Positions 1 to 7,132 of a stretch of DNA of 64,000 nt are shown here, piece after piece. This stretch comes from a virus, in the IMG/VR virus record IMGVR_UViG_3300045120_000303, positions 1 through 64,000 of that record; one strand, 5' to 3'. The notes under the pieces are model-generated. The model saw nothing but the letters and a program-made list of their open reading frames with translations, was not told the DNA's origin and ran no database searches. How positions within the stretch are numbered: the stretch's first letter is position 1; every line of letters starts with the position of its first letter. The position numbers and the translations under genes are program-made.

Positions 1-305
1 GGAGCGGTGCACAGGCAGGGCCCACGGGCCCGACGTCGGTGGAGCGGCGCACAGGCAGGGCCCACGGGCCCGACGTCGGTGGAGCGGTGCACAGGCAGGG
101 CCCACGGGCCCGACGTCGGTGGAGCGGCGCACAGGCAGGGCCCACGGGCCCGACGTCGGTGGAGCGGTGCACAGGCAGGGCCCACGGGCCCGACGTCGGT
201 GGAGCGGCGCACAGGCAGGGCCCACGGGCCCGACGTCGGTGGAGCGGCGCACAGGCAGGGCCCACGGGCCCGACGTCGGTGGAGCGGTGCACAGGCAGGG
301 CCACG
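1..305. repeat. 40-bp tandem repeat array, cut by window start
   Basis: About 7.6 head-to-tail copies of a 40-bp unit start at positions 1, 41, 81, 121, 161, 201, 241 and 281; the last is truncated near 300. Units are identical except for base 7, which reads T,C,T,C,T,C,C,T, giving a partial 80-bp higher-order period. All frames stay open because 40 is not a multiple of 3, so long Arg/Gly/Pro-rich ORFs arise; I do not regard these as genes. The array probably continues beyond the left edge. It is followed by GGGCCGCATC-type short repeats at about 330-370. Confidence 0.95.
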
Positions 306-410
306 GGCCGCGGGATCGGTATGCGGGCCGCGGGCCCGCATTCGGGCCGCATCGGGCCGCATCGGGCCCGCCATGGTGCGGCAGACTGGCGGAATTCCGC
401 CATTTTTGGT

Positions 411-480
411 GTGATAGTCGCATTTCGGCCTGTTATAGTCGCATTTCGGCCTTATCGGCTGTTATAGTCGCAATTCGGCC
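411..480. repeat. Three 20-bp direct repeats
   Basis: Three near-identical copies lie at 411-430, 432-451 and 461-480, with core ATAGTCGCATTTCGGCC. Copy 1 has GTG instead of GTT at its start and copy 3 has one A/T change. No gene is nearby. They could be protein-binding iterons or remnants of a larger repeat. Confidence 0.85.
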
Positions 481-506
481 CTAAATGGTCGAATCGACCC
501 CCTCCC

Positions 507-625
507 CCCCTACATGCGGTTATCAGGAACCGACCCCCCTACATGCGGTTATCAGGAACAATCCCCTACGTGCGGCTATGCGGAGGAATTCGGCCGGCCA
601 GCCCCTACGTGCGGTTGTCACGAAC
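507..625 (+). repeat. Cluster of four dispersed ~24-bp repeats
   Basis: Copies lie at 507-530, 536-559, about 563-582 (diverged 3' end) and 602-625, all in the same orientation. The shared core is CTACATGCGGTTATCAGG, preceded by a C run and followed by AAC. The same element recurs in pairs at 2187-2238, 3242-3286 and 5079-5123, always between genes or directly before a start codon. It is not palindromic. Roles as iterons, an anti-repressor site or an mRNA element are all possible. Confidence 0.9.
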
Positions 626-695
626 AGACAAAATTCTGCGTCGCAATCTTGGCTCGAAGTGCGCCAAATATTTTTCACGACGCGATGACATCCAC

Positions 696-726
696 TTGCA
701 TTGCGGCGCAATCTGCGCCATATAAT
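696..726 (+). promoter_or_regulatory. Promoter P1 with embedded GGCGCA-N3-TGCGCC operator
   Basis: TTGCAT (-35, 696-701) and a consensus TATAAT (-10, 721-726) are separated by 19 bp. The spacer holds the palindrome GGCGCA-ATC-TGCGCC at 705-719. The start codon at 763 lies about 30 bp after the expected transcription start. The geometry is repeated exactly at 1471-1501 and 3296-3326, which argues for a repressor binding between the promoter hexamers. Confidence 0.75.
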
Positions 727-762
727 CAGTCACGCGCTGGGCAACGGGTTCGGCGCTTTTAG

Positions 763-1467
763 ATGGGACATTCCCTCGTGCAACACCTCGATACCAATAC
801 CGACCTCGCCGCGATGTTCGACATTGAGATGGCGGACGACGTCGCCGCTCCTACCAGCCCGCCCACAGCGTTCTGCGGCAAGTGCAAGGGCAAGGGCAAG
901 TTCTACTCCTACACGGGCCGCGCAGTCGGCAATTGCTTTGCGTGCAATGGCACGGGCCTCGACCGCATGGCGTGCATCGAGGTCAAGGAAGGCGATTGCA
1001 CGAAGTGCGGCGGCAGCGGCGAGTGGCGTCCTGGCCGGCCGTGCTTCGCCTGCAATAGCACTGGCAAGGTTGCGGGCTCACAAAACGTCGACATCTCAGT
1101 GGAGGCGATCGCCACCGCGTTCGCCGCGGCCACACAGCATGGCATTGCGGCGCCCAAGCTTCGCCTGGGGACGTTCCTGTTCTCCCTCGCGCCGAACACC
1201 GGGCGCAACGCCGGCGCCATCTACGTGAAGACGGCGGCGAGCCGCGAATATCTGGGCAAGGTGATCGGTGGCAAGTTCTCCCCGACGCTCGCCTGCGACG
1301 CGGTAACCAAGGCGGAGGTAGTGGCGGTTGCCGCGGACCCGGCCAATGCGGCCAAGGCCTACGGCCAGCGGACCAACAAATGCTCATGCTGCGGTCGGAC
1401 GCTCACCAATGGTGACTCGGTTGATCTAGGCATCGGCCCAATCTGCGCCGAAAAATTCGGATGGTAA
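763..1467 (+). CDS. Zinc-finger protein with DnaJ-like CxxC repeats and C-terminal DUF6011-like domain
   Basis: This 234-residue protein has paired cysteines at about 38/41, 58/61, 79/82 and 94/97 in CxxCxGxG-like settings, as in the DnaJ cysteine-rich domain, so one or two structural zincs are likely. The last ~28 residues, beginning CSCCGRTL and containing GIGPIC, match the DUF6011 pattern found in phage and accessory proteins. The middle (about 110-200) has no recognised domain. It is the first gene after promoter P1 and no strong Shine-Dalgarno precedes it. Function is unknown; nucleic-acid binding is an inference from the zinc ribbons. Confidence 0.8.
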   Translation: MGHSLVQHLDTNTDLAAMFDIEMADDVAAPTSPPTAFCGKCKGKGKFYSYTGRAVGNCFACNGTGLDRMACIEVKEGDCTKCGGSGEWRPGRPCFACNSTGKVAGSQNVDISVEAIATAFAAATQHGIAAPKLRLGTFLFSLAPNTGRNAGAIYVKTAASREYLGKVIGGKFSPTLACDAVTKAEVVAVAADPANAAKAYGQRTNKCSCCGRTLTNGDSVDLGIGPICAEKFGW

Positions 1468-1470
1468 CGC

Positions 1471-1501
1471 TTGACATGTGGCGCACTATGCGCCACATAC
1501 T
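1471..1501 (+). promoter_or_regulatory. Promoter P2 with embedded GGCGCA-N3-TGCGCC operator
   Basis: A perfect TTGACA (1471-1476) begins 3 bp after the stop codon of the preceding gene. N3 is followed by GGCGCA-CTA-TGCGCC (1480-1494), one A, and CATACT (1496-1501). The dyad extends to TGTGGCGCA-CTA-TGCGCCACA. Spacing is 19 bp, as in P1 and P3. It should drive the gene at 1557. Confidence 0.75.
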
Positions 1502-1508
1502 TCCCCAC

Positions 1509-1560
1509 GGCGCAGGCATGGGCCTCGCCTCAACACTTGAAGAGGGACTTTCCCCGATGA
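1509..1560 (+). repeat. Leader repeat, copy 1
   Basis: This ~52-bp segment ends in AGAGGGACTTTCCCCGATGA, which includes the ribosome site (GAGGGA) and the start codon of the gene at 1557. A nearly identical segment precedes the next gene at 1775-1827. The match starts at GGCGCAGGCAT and covers the whole leader, so the 5' region was duplicated with little divergence while the proteins downstream differ. Confidence 0.85.
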
Positions 1561-1787
1561 CGACCAAGCACGAAGCCATTTTGGAAGAGAACGCCAAGCT
1601 GCGGGCCGCGCTCGCCAACCTGCGCGACGCTATGCGGGCCCACGACGACAAGCTCAACGATGATGATCAACCCTGCGGCGCACAGAGCCCGACAGGCGAC
1701 GATTACAACGACCTATTCTGCCTCGTGCTGGACGCCCTGCGGGACGCCGGCATGTCGCTCACAGCCGGCAGTACGGCGCAGGCATAA
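1557..1787 (+). CDS. Small hypothetical protein with N-terminal coiled coil
   Basis: This 76-residue protein starts at the ATG after GAGGGA with 9-nt spacing; the longer upstream frame at 1461 would run through promoter P2 and is less likely. Residues ~5-35 form an Ala/Leu/Glu heptad-like helix. The C-terminal half is acidic (NDDDQ, GDDYND). The last codons (STAQA) fall in the second copy of the duplicated leader. No family recognised. Confidence 0.6.
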   Translation: MTTKHEAILEENAKLRAALANLRDAMRAHDDKLNDDDQPCGAQSPTGDDYNDLFCLVLDALRDAGMSLTAGSTAQA

Positions 1788-1827
1788 GCCTCGCCTCCAC
1801 AGCTCACAGAGGGACTTTCCCCGATGA
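1775..1827 (+). repeat. Leader repeat, copy 2
   Basis: Second copy of the leader at 1509-1560, differing at a handful of positions. It includes GAGGGACTTTCCCCG and the ATG at 1824. It overlaps the 3' end of the preceding gene and has no P2-like promoter of its own. Confidence 0.85.
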
Positions 1828-2186
1828 CCACTCCCACCACTCCCCGTTTTATCGTCATGACCAGCAGCGCCCAGGTCCGCGGCATTGCCGCCAAGTACGG
1901 CCGCTATTCAAATGTGGCTGTCGTCGAAACCGATGGCGTTGAGGTTCCCAAGATGATCAGCGAGCGTGCGCGCCACTTGGTTCGCATCGTGCGCCACTAC
2001 GGCGCCTGCAGCGTCGGCACCACCGATCGGTGCCAGTTCAACGTGGCGCTGGCGGAGGCGAATGCCCTCGCCGTCAAGCTGAACGCGGAGGCGGAGGCTC
2101 TCCGCGCCGCGCTGAAGGCGCCCGTAACTATTCCTGCCGATGATACAGCGCGCTACTGGCCTGGACCTGTGCCAGCGGAGGGCTGA
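1824..2186 (+). CDS. Hypothetical protein
   Basis: This 120-residue protein starts at the ATG served by the duplicated leader ribosome site. It is Thr/Ser-rich at the start, has a basic middle (SERARHLVRIVRH) and an Ala-rich helix at about 75-100. It has no cysteine cluster or membrane segment and matches no family I know. The ~24-bp repeat pair starts right after its stop codon. Confidence 0.6.
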   Translation: MTTPTTPRFIVMTSSAQVRGIAAKYGRYSNVAVVETDGVEVPKMISERARHLVRIVRHYGACSVGTTDRCQFNVALAEANALAVKLNAEAEALRAALKAPVTIPADDTARYWPGPVPAEG

Positions 2187-2238
2187 CCCCTCCACGCGCG
2201 GCTATCACCCATACCCCTACAAGCGGTTATCAAAGGAC
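2187..2238 (+). repeat. Dispersed ~24-bp repeat, pair 2
   Basis: Two diverged copies, 2187-2208 (CGCGGCTATCAC core) and 2214-2238 (CTACAAGCGGTTATCA core), lie between the stop at 2186 and the ATG at 2246. The second copy merges into AAAGGAC, which can act as the ribosome site for the next gene. Confidence 0.8.
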
Positions 2239-2245
2239 AAATGAG

Positions 2246-2596
2246 ATGAGCGACGACCTTTCGATCAAAATGCGAACCACCATGGACATGCAGAGCCGCA
2301 AGGCCTTCCGGTGGAATACGACCGTCTGCCACAGGAACGACGACGGCTCGCACACGTTCGTGCCAGCCCGTTGCACGTCGCAGAGCCTGACGCATCTGCA
2401 TCCCTCTCGCGTGCCGGCCAAGCTGTTGGCGGAGCTGAACCCCCTACGTGTGGTTAACGCGGCGCCCGACATGCTGGCGGCGCTGGTAGAGGCCGAGGGG
2501 TTCATCCTGGGCTTTGAGGACGACGAGCAGCAGGGGGAATCTGTCAACCCGATGCTGGCGCGCATCCGCGCAGCAATCACCAAGGCGATAGGATAA
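2246..2596 (+). CDS. Phage hypothetical protein with 'NAAPDML' helical C-terminus
   Basis: This 116-residue protein ends in a segment (VNAAPDMLAALVEAEGFI ... ARIRAAITKAI) typical of small early phage proteins of unknown function found in many proteobacterial phages. The N-terminal half is basic with two cysteines. A sequence resembling the ~24-bp dispersed repeat occurs inside the gene at 2441-2458. Start is supported by AAAGGAC upstream. Confidence 0.65.
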   Translation: MSDDLSIKMRTTMDMQSRKAFRWNTTVCHRNDDGSHTFVPARCTSQSLTHLHPSRVPAKLLAELNPLRVVNAAPDMLAALVEAEGFILGFEDDEQQGESVNPMLARIRAAITKAIG

Positions 2597-2600
2597 GGCG

Positions 2601-2903
2601 ATGGCACTGAGGTTCACGCCCAACGGTCGCGACGCTAGGCACGTCAGCGCCGAGGACATCAGTCGGGCGCGGGAGGCGGCGGAATACGTGTTCGACGCCC
2701 ACGCCACGACCTCCACAGCCGCCTGGACGGCGTACCGCCTGCAGTGGCTGGAACACGACGACGACGACCTGATGACCGGTCTGGCGCTCGTGTGGCTTGA
2801 GGCGCGAGGTGCGGCCGATATCGCACTGACGGCGGGCTGGGAGATGGAAGACCGCGCCGAGGCGTTCTGTGAAATGGACTGTGATGAGAGTGAAGGACTG
2901 TAA
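2601..2903 (+). CDS. Hypothetical acidic protein
   Basis: This 100-residue protein lies 4 bp after the previous stop and 2 bp before the next start, so it is in the same transcript. It contains a Trp-rich helix (~45-55), an acidic run (EHDDDD) and a C-terminus rich in Glu/Asp with two cysteines. No recognised family. Confidence 0.6.
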   Translation: MALRFTPNGRDARHVSAEDISRAREAAEYVFDAHATTSTAAWTAYRLQWLEHDDDDLMTGLALVWLEARGAADIALTAGWEMEDRAEAFCEMDCDESEGL

Positions 2904-2905
2904 CG

Positions 2906-3241
2906 ATGAGACTTTATAGCTGCAGTGGCTGGGCGTTCGACGATAGCGACACGGGCCAGCAGTTCTATCGCACCAAGGCGGAGGCGATGAAGGCGGCTCG
3001 CGAGGCGACGGCGCCGAGTGCCACGGTCGAGGGGTCCGACGCCGAGGTTAGGCTGCACATAGCCGGCCCGATCAGCGCCTCTCTGATCGTGGCGATGCTG
3101 AATCACACGGGCTGGTGCAGACACTCCGAGACGATTGCCCACGTCAGCAACGGACGCGTGAAGCACGAGGCCGAGGGCGACGACGTCGGGCGTAGCGAGG
3201 CGATTTGGCAGGCTCGCATGGCCGGCGACATGGAGGCCTGA
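2906..3241 (+). CDS. Hypothetical protein
   Basis: This 111-residue protein starts MRLYSCSGWAFDDSDTG, an opening that suggests a small alpha/beta fold, followed by an Ala/Lys-rich helix (~30-40). It has two His/Cys pairs but no clear metal motif. Its stop codon is abutted by repeat pair 3. Unknown function. Confidence 0.6.
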   Translation: MRLYSCSGWAFDDSDTGQQFYRTKAEAMKAAREATAPSATVEGSDAEVRLHIAGPISASLIVAMLNHTGWCRHSETIAHVSNGRVKHEAEGDDVGRSEAIWQARMAGDMEA

Positions 3242-3286
3242 CCCCCTCTACATGCGGTTATCAGGATTACATGCGGCTATCAGGAA
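3242..3286 (+). repeat. Dispersed ~24-bp repeat, pair 3
   Basis: Two adjoining copies lie at 3242-3266 and 3267-3286, both with the ACATGCGG-TATCAGGA core, directly after the stop codon at 3241 and just before promoter P3. Confidence 0.9.
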
Positions 3287-3295
3287 CAGAACCTC

Positions 3296-3326
3296 TTGCA
3301 ACCTGGCGCATAATGCGCCACATGCG
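3296..3326 (+). promoter_or_regulatory. Promoter P3 with embedded GGCGCA-N3-TGCGCC operator
   Basis: TTGCAA (3296-3301), N3, GGCGCA-TAA-TGCGCC (3305-3319), A, then CATGCG (3321-3326): the same register and 19-bp spacing as P1 and P2, with a poorer -10. It lies upstream of the HTH gene at 3351, so an autoregulatory loop is plausible. Confidence 0.65.
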
Positions 3327-3350
3327 CGAGGCAAGATTGGAGAGAGGGCT

Positions 3351-3572
3351 ATGACCCCAGAACGATTCCGGCAGTCTCTGACTGCGCTTGATCTCAGCCC
3401 CGTGGCGTTCGCGTCGTGGATCAACGCCAACGACCGCATGGTGCGGCGCTGGGCGTCGGGCAAGATGGTGATACCGGACGACATGTCGCAGTGGCTGGAG
3501 GGGCTCACGAAGTACCTTGAGCAGAACCCGCTGCCGCGGCTGCACAGCGCTCGGTGGGGGCGCACGCCATGA
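3351..3572 (+). CDS. Small helix-turn-helix protein (Cro-like), copy A
   Basis: This 73-residue protein has a HTH-like stretch at ~10-45 (SPVAFASWINANDRMVRRWASG), with the RxW(A/S)G ending typical of small phage XRE/Cro-like DNA-binding proteins. The ATG is preceded by GAGAGAGGG with good spacing. Its stop overlaps the start of a paralogue (3569). It sits directly behind promoter P3 and is a candidate for the protein that binds the GGCGCA-N3-TGCGCC operators; this link is inference. Confidence 0.7.
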   Translation: MTPERFRQSLTALDLSPVAFASWINANDRMVRRWASGKMVIPDDMSQWLEGLTKYLEQNPLPRLHSARWGRTP

Positions 3573-3769
3573 TGGAGCCGGCGCGGTTCCGGCAGTGCCT
3601 GGAGCAGATCGGATGGACGCTGCGAGGCGTGGCCGATCACCTGGGCCTGCCGCCCACTCGCATCCGGCGCTGGGCGGACGGAGACTACCCGGTGCCGGCC
3701 GAGGTCGGCCGCTGGCTCGACAGGCTGGCAGCGGCGCACGAGCGGTTCCCACCACCCGAGGTCGACTGA
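3569..3769 (+). CDS. Small helix-turn-helix protein (Cro-like), copy B
   Basis: This 66-residue protein resembles copy A: both start M(T/E)P(E/A)RFRQ, have an HTH at ~18-45 and a RRWA(S/D)G motif, and continue with a V/I-P-x-(E/D) turn and W-L helix. The start ATGATG at 3569/3572 overlaps the stop of copy A. Operator O1 lies 15 bp after its stop. The pair looks like a tandem duplication. Confidence 0.7.
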   Translation: MMEPARFRQCLEQIGWTLRGVADHLGLPPTRIRRWADGDYPVPAEVGRWLDRLAAAHERFPPPEVD

Positions 3770-3783
3770 AACAGTAGACAGCG

Positions 3784-3800
3784 CGTCACACTCTGTGACA
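3784..3800. promoter_or_regulatory. Operator O1, CGTCACA-N3-TGTGAC
   Basis: CGTCACACTCTGTGACA has a perfect 6-bp dyad (GTCACA/TGTGAC) around CTC. It matches O2 (15732-15748) and O3 (15868-15884) at the divergent control region 12 kb away. It lies in the leader of the gene at 3883. A weak TAGACA sits 3 bp upstream, compatible with a promoter overlapped by the operator. Confidence 0.7.
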
Positions 3801-3882
3801 TGTCTGACGGCGCGGCGGCGCTGTTGTCGCCGTGAAAACCCGGTGGGGTCTTGGGCTCCACCAACCTCTTGGAGGTTACAAC

Positions 3883-4986
3883 ATGAGCCTTACTGCAACG
3901 ATCCGTTTGGATCGAGCTGCCTGCATTCTGGCCGGCAGAAGCGACTTTGGCGATTTTGGCGTGCCACTTTACGACGCTGACTTGGCCACATTCTCCGAGC
4001 TAGAGCGGAAGCTCATCGCGGAGCGCACCGACGATAATGGCAAGGTCGACCTGACAAAGCTGTCATTGCGCCGGCCGGATAGCTCGTGGACGTCGACCGA
4101 CGTGCCATACCCATCCCTGACGGTTGTCGACACCGAAGGCGTGCGGGCCGTCGTGGCGGCTCTCGTGACTGCCACCGAGGCCCGCGCTCTGAAGGACGCA
4201 GCGGAGAAGGCCGCGCGCGTGACGGAGTGGGAGGAGAAGGAGCGGGAATGGCTCGCCAAGCCTGACGATGAACTGCTGGTCGCCGGTTCGGCTTACGGCC
4301 GGGGGCTGCGTTACTCGGGCCACTTCAGCGTCACCACCCCCGAATACGGCATCCTGCAGAGGGGGCAGGAATTTCGCCCTGACCACGGGTACTATCGCGG
4401 GATGGTCCCTTCAAAGGAGGTGCTGCAGCGGCTCGCGGACCTGCAGCGGCTCGCGGACCAGCGCAACGCCGAGAGCGAAGCGACCGACAAGGCCAATCGG
4501 GAGGATCAGGCGGCGCGGGAGCGTGCCAACGAGGCAGCGCAGGAGGCGGCGCTGGAGGGGGCGCTGCAGGCTGGTGGCACTGAGGGACAGCGCAAGCGGC
4601 ATGCCCGCGGTCTGCTGCCCAAGGAGGAGCTACTGACGCTCTACCGGGATCAGGTCTTCGCGCCGCTGGAATCGTTCGCCAGGTACCAGCGGATCACCAA
4701 GGCCGAAATCCGCGCAGCCGATGCCGACCACAGCGACCGGTACGTGGACGACGACGAGTACGAGTTCGGCACGAGCGATTCTGAAGAGGCAACGGACGAG
4801 GAACTGGCCACGCTGGAGGCTATCGAGCAGGTCGCGAAAGCCCGCCTGCCCGAGGGCACCACATGCGAGCTGAAGCTCCACTCTGGCGGCTTTGAGCGGT
4901 CGAAGGAGTGGGCGGTTCAGCGCAACTCGGTAATGGTCACCGTCCTGGCGCCGGTGAAGGTATCGCGCGAATACGCCTGCCCGTGA
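3883..4986 (+). CDS. Hypothetical coiled-coil protein
   Basis: This 367-residue protein has an ATG preceded by GGAGG at 3871-3875, clearly better than the longer frame at 3832. Residues ~180-240 form a charged Ala/Gln/Glu coiled coil. A strongly acidic stretch (DDDEYEFGTSDSEEATDEE) lies near 285-305, and the C-terminus looks beta-rich. No catalytic motif was recognised. It is the largest gene of the left module, under operator O1, and followed by three tandem hairpins. Confidence 0.7.
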   Translation: MSLTATIRLDRAACILAGRSDFGDFGVPLYDADLATFSELERKLIAERTDDNGKVDLTKLSLRRPDSSWTSTDVPYPSLTVVDTEGVRAVVAALVTATEARALKDAAEKAARVTEWEEKEREWLAKPDDELLVAGSAYGRGLRYSGHFSVTTPEYGILQRGQEFRPDHGYYRGMVPSKEVLQRLADLQRLADQRNAESEATDKANREDQAARERANEAAQEAALEGALQAGGTEGQRKRHARGLLPKEELLTLYRDQVFAPLESFARYQRITKAEIRAADADHSDRYVDDDEYEFGTSDSEEATDEELATLEAIEQVAKARLPEGTTCELKLHSGGFERSKEWAVQRNSVMVTVLAPVKVSREYACP

Positions 4987-4990
4987 GAAA

Positions 4991-5083
4991 CCGCGGATCG
5001 GTGTGAGCCTACACCGGTCTGCGGGCTGCACCCGTGTACCAGCGGGGGTGCAGCACAGGGGGGCGGTCTGTAAGATCGCCCCC
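4991..5083 (+). ncRNA. Candidate structured RNA: three tandem stem-loops
   Basis: Directly after the stop codon at 4986: hairpin 1 has a 14-bp stem (4991-5004 with 5011-5024, G-T wobbles allowed) and loop GAGCCT; hairpin 2 has a perfect 9-bp stem (GCTGCACCC 5025-5033 with 5046-5054); hairpin 3 has a 9-bp stem with one wobble (GGGGGCGGT 5059-5067 with 5075-5083). There is no U-tract after any of them, so a simple terminator is less likely. Hairpin 3 runs into repeat pair 4. Confidence 0.55.
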
Positions 5084-5123
5084 TACGTGCGGTTATGAGG
5101 AACCATCACATGCGGCTATCACG
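5079..5123 (+). repeat. Dispersed ~24-bp repeat, pair 4
   Basis: Copies at about 5079-5103 (CTACGTGCGGTTATGAGG core) and 5106-5123 (ACATGCGGCTATCACG core). The second ends at the base before the ATG of the gene at 5124, so it also forms that gene's translation start context. Confidence 0.85.
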
Positions 5124-5750
5124 ATGAGCGACTGGGCGCTGGCCGGCGACCGCATGACGTACACCGAGACGCCAGAGGGCAACCTGACAATCACGTTCGA
5201 CAACAAGGGCACGGGCCGCGTCTGCGGCTCGTGCCAGTTGTGCTGCAAGCTTCTGCCGATCCCAGTGCTAAACAAAGCCGCGAACCAGCGGTGCCAGCAC
5301 CAGCGCCACGGCAAGGGCTGCGGGATCTACGCCGAGCGCCCCTTCGCCTGCCGCACTTGGTCGTGCCGGTGGGTGTCAGACCGCACCGCGACCGAGGGCA
5401 TGCCGAGGCCTGACAGGTGTCACTACGTCATCGATATCATCCCCGACCACGTCGATCTGGAGGACAAAGAAACGGGCTACAAACGCCGTGTCGATGTGAT
5501 AACCGTGTGGGTGGATCCGGCCTTCCGCGACGCATACAAAGCACCCGAGCTACGTGCGTTTATGCTGAAGATGGCGCAGCAATATCGCCTCGCAACGATC
5601 GTGCGCTGGTCAAGCAGCGATGCCGTAACGATATTCCCGCCACCGCTCGACATGGATGGCCAATGGCACGAAATGCGCGGCAACATGGTGCAGCGCGACC
5701 ACGAGGACATGCTGGAGATGGCCAGCCGAACGACGGTGATAACGCAATGA
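5124..5750 (+). CDS. YkgJ-like cysteine-cluster protein
   Basis: This 208-residue protein has cysteines at about 34, 37, 40, 41, 57, 66, 76 and 81, in the order CGSCQLCC ... C ... CGIY ... RPFACRTWSC. That is the pattern of the YkgJ/zinc-or-iron-chelating family (UPF0153-like), whose members bind a metal or Fe-S cluster and are poorly characterised. The rest (~100-208) is an alpha/beta tail without known motifs. The ATG at 5124 is preferred over the in-frame 5034 start because the latter would translate the repeats. Its stop overlaps the next start by 4 bp. Confidence 0.75.
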   Translation: MSDWALAGDRMTYTETPEGNLTITFDNKGTGRVCGSCQLCCKLLPIPVLNKAANQRCQHQRHGKGCGIYAERPFACRTWSCRWVSDRTATEGMPRPDRCHYVIDIIPDHVDLEDKETGYKRRVDVITVWVDPAFRDAYKAPELRAFMLKMAQQYRLATIVRWSSSDAVTIFPPPLDMDGQWHEMRGNMVQRDHEDMLEMASRTTVITQ

Positions 5751-5932
5751 AACATAAGTTGATGCCCTGCGACGATTGCACGGTGGAGACAGGAATTCCA
5801 GTCATGGACGAGCCGGTGTGCCCGCGCTGCGGCAAGCCCAAGAAACCCGACACCGTAGGCCACAAGCACACTGGACATCTCTGCTACGTTTGCGGCCATT
5901 CGACTGATCGCGGAGACGTGGCTCCTGGGTGA
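5747..5932 (+). CDS. Small zinc-ribbon protein
   Basis: This 61-residue protein has three CxxC pairs (CDDC, CPRC, CYVC) and a lysine-rich middle, so it likely binds one or two zincs. The ATGA overlap with the previous stop indicates translational coupling. Unknown role. Confidence 0.65.
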   Translation: MKHKLMPCDDCTVETGIPVMDEPVCPRCGKPKKPDTVGHKHTGHLCYVCGHSTDRGDVAPG

Positions 5933-5941
5933 GCTAGCGCA

Positions 5942-6124
5942 ATGATCCTTCGCCGCGCCGCCGACCTGACGACGGATGACAACCTGCGTCTGGAGGGTGG
6001 CATGCTGTGGAACATCGCGGACCTCTCATGGAACGAGGGACGCGTCACGCTGCAACTGACCCGAATGGTGGGGGACAAGATGACGCTCATCCTGTGGCCG
6101 GATGACATGGTCCTGCTCGCCTAG
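5942..6124 (+). CDS. Small hypothetical protein
   Basis: This 60-residue protein starts 9 bp after the previous stop and is the last gene of the left rightward module. It is predicted mostly beta (alternating TLQLTRMVGDKMTLILW). It converges with the leftward operon, overlapping the end of that operon by 4 bp, with no terminator hairpin visible between them. Confidence 0.55.
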   Translation: MILRRAADLTTDDNLRLEGGMLWNIADLSWNEGRVTLQLTRMVGDKMTLILWPDDMVLLA

Positions 6125-6417
6125 CCCACCTCGACTCCGCCAACCTTTGCGATGATCCGGCGCGCGGCCTCGGCCCCCGTGCCGTAGGAGATCACGCACA
6201 CCGGCATCCCGGTTTCATCGACGCCCTCGACGTCAAACCAGGGCGCAAATGGGTCTGCAGCGCCCTTCACGTACATCTCCATCGGGGCGTTGCGGACGAG
6301 GCGGTAGGCCACCGGCGGCGGGATGGCACGCGATGGCACGCGTGGCGGTGGTGCGGGTGGTGCGGGTGGTGCGGGTGGTGCGGGTGCAAACAGCGAAAGC
6401 TGCGGCGCCTTAGCCAC
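6121..6417 (-). CDS. Hypothetical protein with Pro-Ala repeat
   Basis: This 98-residue protein starts at GTG (6417), which overlaps the TAA of the upstream gene. It has a PAPPAPPAPPAPPP linker at ~12-27, encoded by 9-bp GGTGCGGGT tandem repeats at 6348-6387, then a compact C-terminal domain (VAYRLVRNAP ... GTGAEAARRIIAKVGG). Frames starting further upstream overlap the neighbour and are not credible. Unknown function; last gene of its operon. Confidence 0.55.
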   Translation of the reverse strand: MAKAPQLSLFAPAPPAPPAPPAPPPRVPSRAIPPPVAYRLVRNAPMEMYVKGAADPFAPWFDVEGVDETGMPVCVISYGTGAEAARRIIAKVGGVEVG

Positions 6418-7132
6418 GCCCAAGCCTCGACAGCCTCGACATGCGCCTATCCGGAGGTTCTCCCTTGGCCCACAGCTCCTGCCATTTCGCCAGGTAGGCG
6501 TCCTGCAGCGCTTGCATCGAGGGGAACCAATCGCCACCCGGCTTGAGGATCGAGCCATCGGGCCCGACGTGTCCCCACCAGGCATTCGACGCCGGCGCCT
6601 CCAGCAACAGCGCCGTGGATGTCTCCGGGGATCCGGCGATCCTCCACGCCGTGACATACATTTGCTTTAGCCAACAATTCTCGTGCGAGGGCGGCTGCGT
6701 CGCGTCGCGCGGTTCGACCGAAACCACCATGTGTTGTGCGGCCGCGGGGACATAGTGTGCCGGTTCGTTAACGATTATCGATGAGGCAGACGCAACCCCG
6801 ATCGAGCAATTGATCGGGTCTGATAGTTGCACGAGGAACTCTTCGTCTTCCTCGAAAACAGTGTCGCCGGCCACCGCCACTTCGATCGCCGCAGTGGTTT
6901 GGTCGATATCGAATGTAACGATACCGCTAGGCAGCGCACCGCCGACATAGTCCGCCGGTTCGGTGTCGCCTGCCAGCACCGTCCACGACGCGCTCGATAC
7001 CATGCTCTGATCGATCGAGCGCGTCACGGTGAAAGTGAACAACGTCTCGCCGGCGTCGCCTTCGACATGGCCGCTTTGGTCCGCCGCGATGTCGAGCCTG
7101 GGCATTGGCGCCCGCGGTGTTGTGCCGCTCAT
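6410..7132 (-). CDS. Calx-beta domain protein
   Basis: This 240-residue protein has residues ~20-115 resembling a Calx-beta domain: GxxGETLFTFTVTRS, W-x-V-x-x-G-x-x-P-A-D-Y, a G-x-V-T-F-x-x-x-Q-T core and an acidic EEDEEF loop suited to calcium. The C-terminal part (~130-240) is Trp-rich and unrecognised. Calx-beta domains usually serve adhesion or calcium binding on cell surfaces. It is encoded downstream of the radical-SAM-like gene with a 4-bp overlap. A structural or host-surface role is inference. Confidence 0.65.
   Translation of the reverse strand: MSGTTPRAPMPRLDIAADQSGHVEGDAGETLFTFTVTRSIDQSMVSSASWTVLAGDTEPADYVGGALPSGIVTFDIDQTTAAIEVAVAGDTVFEEDEEFLVQLSDPINCSIGVASASSIIVNEPAHYVPAAAQHMVVSVEPRDATQPPSHENCWLKQMYVTAWRIAGSPETSTALLLEAPASNAWWGHVGPDGSILKPGGDWFPSMQALQDAYLAKWQELWAKGEPPDRRMSRLSRLGRG

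Follow-up and report, generated by a model that had tools for sequence, protein, structure and literature searches.

The DNA analysed here is a 64,000-nt stretch (the window) covering positions 1 to 64,000 of the 66,415-bp virus record IMGVR_UViG_3300045120_000303 from IMG/VR, a tailed phage as judged from its genes (a major head protein, a minor tail protein, and, at the DNA level, a terminase-like match). Its early region carries three promoters in which the palindrome GGCGCA-N3-TGCGCC lies between the -35 and -10 hexamers, along with the genes of two small helix-turn-helix (HTH) proteins, P1 and P2. An earlier note on this DNA had described the three sites as sharing an identical register and a 19-bp spacer within differing flanks, and direct reading showed this to be exact to the base at sites 1, 2, and 3; the palindromic arms grow to 10 bp at site 2 and 7 bp at site 3. 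The genome-wide motif search proposed in the same note located three exact copies of GGCGCA-N3-TGCGCC in the record, all in the early region and corresponding to sites 1-3, with none elsewhere, and the reversed control pattern was absent from the whole 66,415 bp. The longer pattern (C)TTG-N6-GGCGCA-N3-TGCGCC-A was present in exactly three copies, again all in the early region. When up to three mismatches to TTG-N6-GGCGCA-N3-TGCGCC were allowed, 17 matches were counted in the record in comparison to 7.0 ± 3.0 in shuffled sequences (17 was reached by 0 of 100 shuffles), and the sole exact matches were the three sites.

Table 1. Positions of the promoter/operator sites, leader elements, and genes (window coordinates unless a locus is named).
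Feature	Position	Strand	Details and basis
Promoter/operator 1	696..726	+	TTGCAT-TGC-GGCGCA-ATC-TGCGCC-A-TATAAT; operator GGCGCAATCTGCGCC at 705-719; direct reading
Promoter/operator 2	1471..1501	+	TTGACA-TGT-GGCGCA-CTA-TGCGCC-A-CATACT; 10-bp perfect arms 1476-1498; direct reading
Promoter/operator 3	3296..3326	+	TTGCAA-CCT-GGCGCA-TAA-TGCGCC-A-CATGCG; operator GGCGCATAATGCGCC at 3305-3319; HTH gene pair directly downstream; direct reading
HTH protein P1, 73 aa	3351..3572	+	Orthologues 76% and 66% identical in sister phages, 47% in L103
HTH protein P2, 66 aa, proposed anti-CRISPR-associated (Aca)-like repressor	3569..3769	+	phrog_4779 transcriptional regulator, E 3.5e-8
Leader hairpin 1, 9 bp, unbulged, at predicted mRNA 5' end	734..756	+	Folds; terminator-like in terminator scan
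GGGA-CAT-TCCC hairpin, ribosome site before GTG 778	765..775	+	Fold
Gene 1, DnaJ-type zinc-ribbon + DUF6011	778..1467	+	DUF6011 E 1e-13; phrog_4046; DnaJ zinc-finger region
Leader hairpin 2, GGCG-c-AGGC-ATGG-GCCT-CGCC, bulged C, 7 nt past -10	1509..1529	+	Folds, pair counts
GGGA-CTT-TCCC hairpin, ribosome site before ATG 1557	1544..1554	+	Folds
Gene 2, 76 aa, without known family	1557..1787	+	Family searches
Second copy of leader hairpin and ribosome site lying between genes 1557 and 1824, with neither promoter nor operator; gene 2 stop codon in loop	1775..1826	+	Sequence; hairpin fold
Coiled-coil protein, hydrophobic C-terminus, between operator and HTH gene	L099 329-568; L126 2219 onwards; L150 3768-4004		

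The pattern TTG-N6-GGCGCA-N3-TGCGCC-A matched 30 stretches in 2.9 million viral contigs. In the sister contig 3300048909_000132 (64.8 kb; L017/L065/L066) three sites start at positions 460, 1571, and 4301, and the site at 4301 is just upstream of orthologues of the window HTH pair (76% and 80% identical); the first gene behind its first operator is HicB-like (phrog_497; L066 545-949). A further sister pair (3300024249_000006 and 3300045391_003214) carries a single exact site together with two copies, counted over both contigs, that are displaced by one base. No additional sites with zero or one mismatch were found in the sister phages, and the refuting condition set in the earlier note, a motif frequent at random genomic positions of related phages, was checked and did not overturn its proposal. 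CTTG is present at -35 in all seven of the exact-geometry sites, consistent with alphaproteobacterial sigma-70 promoters. The named plasmid relatives of P2, which among the matches listed are almost all from Alphaproteobacteria (e.g., Rhizobium, Acetobacter, and Roseomonas), suggest that this class may also be that of the phage host. Close relatives were not found among named phages by DNA or by P1 protein, a P2-family query against named phages gave a single weak match (an Aeromonas phage), and protein search A3 of genome contigs yielded no match.

The search with P2-type proteins retrieved 52 viral loci, and many of their promoter regions contain CGC(A/G)-N3-(T/C)GCG, often paired and with variable flanks (e.g., ATACGCAATATGCGTAT in L070); automatic assignment of the first gene behind the operators was unreliable at some loci, such as L070 and L132. 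For an enrichment test, 1,280 palindromes (every four-letter word, 256 in all, at each spacer length from 1 to 5) were counted in the 900-nt regions preceding 41 P2-type HTH genes and compared with dinucleotide shuffles. CGCA-N3-TGCG ranked first, with 24 observed versus 3.2 expected (z 11.7, not a strict probability because members of the window clade and certain related loci are included), and the runner-up palindrome reached z = 6.9. Loci L138 and L139 encode a different recognition helix, SHNTVHRWA, and have GGCA-N3-TGCC at the equivalent place. L028, a locus retrieved solely through the DNA pattern, likewise has a gene for a P2 relative (E 1.3e-20) on the same strand. Taken together, the enrichment, the co-variation with the helix, and L028 indicate that the site belongs with the P2-type HTH family and not with a host factor.

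P2 matches HTH_31/HTH_3, and its confident AF2 model (pLDDT 92.7) has as its top PDB fold matches Aca2 (TM 0.81) and Aca1, whose structure was determined in complex with palindromic DNA. Most Acas are small HTH proteins, and they repress their own operons via inverted repeats in the core promoter (PMC9410906); their published half-sites are similar to those described here, with GGCACA-N-TGTGCC for Aca1 and TTCGCA-AT-TGCGAA for Aca2 (PMC9410881). Like P2, the proteins Aca1, Aca2, and Aca10 are small (most Acas have ~60-80 residues) and share the fold; they autoregulate phage operons, as proposed for P2, and their inverted-repeat operators, frequently a pair for each promoter, lie inside the core promoter (PMC9410906; PMC9410881). 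The phage has such a repeat in the promoter of the operon encoding P2 itself (operator 3 precedes the HTH pair, and the enrichment is family-wide) and a small HTH protein with the Aca fold, whereas no operon gene examined matched an anti-CRISPR family in NCBIfam or PHROGs. It also differs from the Aca systems in having several promoters presumably under control rather than one, a conserved leader hairpin with a bulge, and an operator centre of 3 nt rather than 1-2 nt. In a profile search of PDB chains with P2, Aca1 (E 0.13) and Aca2 (E 0.15) both fell below significance (range 0.13-0.16). Because neither a known acr gene nor a significant sequence match was found, P2 is described here as Aca-like and is not assigned to the Acas.

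We conclude that the palindrome, which lies within sigma-70-type early promoters, is probably an operator for a small HTH repressor that the phage itself encodes, P2 being the likeliest candidate. The best reading of P2 is that of an autoregulating, Aca-like early repressor, and Aca membership is not claimed. The dimeric HTH repressor that the earlier note had placed between the hexamers thus gains support as the best reading from the family association, the palindrome enrichment, the helix co-variation, and the fold. In the proposed mechanism, P2 would act as a dimer that binds GGCGCA-N3-TGCGCC between the -35 and -10 hexamers and keeps RNA polymerase off the early promoters, so that the early genes, including the operon of P2 itself, would be switched off once the protein accumulates. 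Some observations weigh against this assignment. The earlier note correctly positioned a -10-like hexamer at each site, but CATGCG at site 3 is a poor one, and operator 3 is the autoregulatory one. Some P2-type loci lack the operator core within 900 nt. Finally, the fold similarity of P2 to Aca2 and Aca1, with TM(query) values of 0.69-0.82, was accompanied by Foldseek E values of 0.06 or worse, which are non-significant for a small domain.

The choice of P2 also has to be weighed against P1, which might read the operator by itself or paired with P2 in a heterodimer. In both phages the P1 gene comes first after operator 3, and the protein is a paralogue sharing 31% identity with P2. P1-type proteins with at least 45% identity were confined to the window clade and L103, however, and the operator core is far more widespread; on this distribution argument P2 would be the likelier reader, and we regard P1 as an unlikely one. 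A CI-like immunity repressor governing a lytic/lysogenic switch would also suit the presence of operators in several of the early promoters, including the one ahead of the regulator's own genes. Unlike those of a lambda-type switch, the sites are all co-directional, without a divergent promoter pair, and neither a tyrosine integrase nor a resolvase was found in the 66-kb record, nor a tyrosine integrase in six related contigs, although these records are possibly fragmentary and integration is not universal among temperate phages. Because the seven (possibly incomplete) records yielded no tyrosine integrase, we consider an early-gene autorepressor likelier than a lysogeny switch, which appears quite improbable. 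Activation of the MerR type, with a dimer in the over-long spacer twisting the promoter into register, would account for the window clade's 19-bp spacing and nearly centred palindrome, and an activated promoter could be expected to have a -10 as weak as the third one. In most relatives, however, the hexamers are 17 bp apart, and in some the operator overlaps a hexamer (e.g., the -10), as read by eye; these features fit occlusion of polymerase. The HTH_31/HTH_3 assignment of P2 is not that of MerR, and no MerR-family matches of P1 or P2 were obtained in PHROG and domain searches, making this mode of action very unlikely. Exploitation by the phage of a host regulator's site is the least credible alternative, for although the promoters resemble ordinary host sigma-70 promoters with a CTTG -35 (a consensus from general knowledge), the site follows a phage HTH family and a strict-pattern scan of 84,980 prokaryote genomes (257 Gb) uncovered no host regulon, its sole hit being a chance match to a conserved fliA-like coding stretch in two Nitrosomonadales.

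The earlier note had further described a regulon of three transcription units. The three sites stand, but three separate units are not established because the promoters are co-directional within ~2.6 kb and a terminator scan revealed no clear terminator between them; nested promoters of a single early region fit equally well.

Behind operators 1 and 2 and many of the relatives' operators, the predicted mRNA opens with a hairpin 5-9 nt past the -10, with one bulged base in most of the stems and, in most cases, a small GGG-CCC hairpin downstream at the ribosome site. Folding gave no leader hairpin behind operator 3. The leaders were more stable than shuffles in 20 of 21 cases, but the mean z was only -1.4. 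For pair counts the arms were transcribed by hand from the folds because MAFFT misaligned the short hairpins. In 20 leader hairpins all 120 of the 120 cells were paired, compensatory changes gave more than one pair type at 3 of the 6 pairs, and 0 of 10,000 3'-arm shuffles did as well; this count is based on 7 distinct arm pairs, for which 4 of 5,040 permutations do equally well, and it is biased towards pairing, as the arms were picked as helices. No credible known RNA family for the leader emerged from an Rfam search of window 1-6500. When the leader pattern was sought elsewhere in viral contigs, the 11 loci found outside the sister phages were rejected as apparent coding or chance matches. 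The leader hairpin is a conserved RNA element of the cassette that often follows the operators, and it may serve in 5'-end protection or in a second, translational control. Aca2 is reportedly capable of translational control via RNA. Because Aca2 binds RNA (complex, PMC11239489), an RNA-level second control is a fair but purely hypothetical possibility. The SAS/ESAS elements of Cluster K mycobacteriophages are comparable in that a short conserved GGGATAGGAGCCC stands just ahead of start codons, about half with an upstream inverted repeat, as do GGGA-N3-TCCC and the hairpin here (PMC3203893), but they have another sequence and host group and no tie to an operator or cognate HTH protein.

Comparison of the leaders points to GTG 778 rather than ATG 763 as the start of gene 1, and the relatives of this zinc-ribbon gene are mostly distant, with different promoter sequences. 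In many relatives (L097, L099, L102, L105, L126, L141, and L150) a coiled-coil protein of 70-106 residues with a hydrophobic end is encoded between the operator and the HTH gene, and the loci with this arrangement include a Methylobacterium indicum plasmid. The homologue in the sister phages is downstream of the HTH genes, and none was found in the window. A conserved cysteine-rich protein encoded at 5124-5750 (+) is 72-74% identical in the sister phages and weakly like PF03692.

Other phages provide partial parallels to the repeated sites. The 17-bp repeat of Corndog (a Cluster O mycobacteriophage), TGTTCGG-N3-CCGAACA, is likewise a phage-specific palindrome repeated in the genome, with arms of 7 bp around a mostly A/T centre of 3 bp (PMC4351075), but it occurs in 34 copies genome-wide, many intragenic, whereas the three sites described here all lie between promoter hexamers. 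The L5-type stoperators of Cluster A mycobacteriophages resemble them as repressor sites spread beyond one promoter (PMC9283540); stoperators are asymmetric and block elongation, whereas the present sites are palindromic and inside promoters. A closer resemblance to stoperators is seen in a separate asymmetric repeat of this phage, ~CCCC-TACRTGCGGYTATC-AGGA, dispersed in a single orientation through the early region at 511, 540, 567, 606, 2193, 2218, 2445, 3249, 3268, 5084, and 5107 (+). It is present in both sister phages too and often finishes in the Shine-Dalgarno-like AGGA near a start codon. The more distant phage L103 has a different, analogous repeat, ATCTTTTGCACCTGACC..AAAAACGG, near its HTH genes (3452, 3487, 3522, 3945, and 3978). 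A 40-bp tandem array occupies window 1-310, followed by a terminator-like GGCGGAATTCCGCC at 387-409 and T-rich DNA. A similar array begins one sister contig, ends another, and is read through in L067, so this repeat is the probable break point of the record; the same terminator-like palindrome is found across the array in L067.

The same operator/promoter arrangement is found in many related phages and in plasmid-borne elements. By analogy with the Acas, P2 and its relatives could conceivably form an unnamed Aca-like family of dual DNA/RNA-binding repressors that bind both the operator and the bulged leader hairpin and so shut their operons twice over, as Aca2 reportedly does, but at several promoters, and the small genes under their control, such as that for the coiled-coil/membrane protein, could be unrecognised anti-defence proteins, but we consider this extended proposal doubtful. 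Since anti-CRISPR operons are marked by repressors of the Aca type, candidate anti-defence genes could be sought with the operator-plus-leader cassette as bait, as has been done in archaeal viruses with regulatory motifs (PMC11065993). The conserved leader hairpins open an RNA-level second control to direct testing, and CGCA-N3-TGCG, with its likely cognate protein family, provides a readable DNA code for early-gene control in a large group of uncultured phages and plasmid-borne elements.

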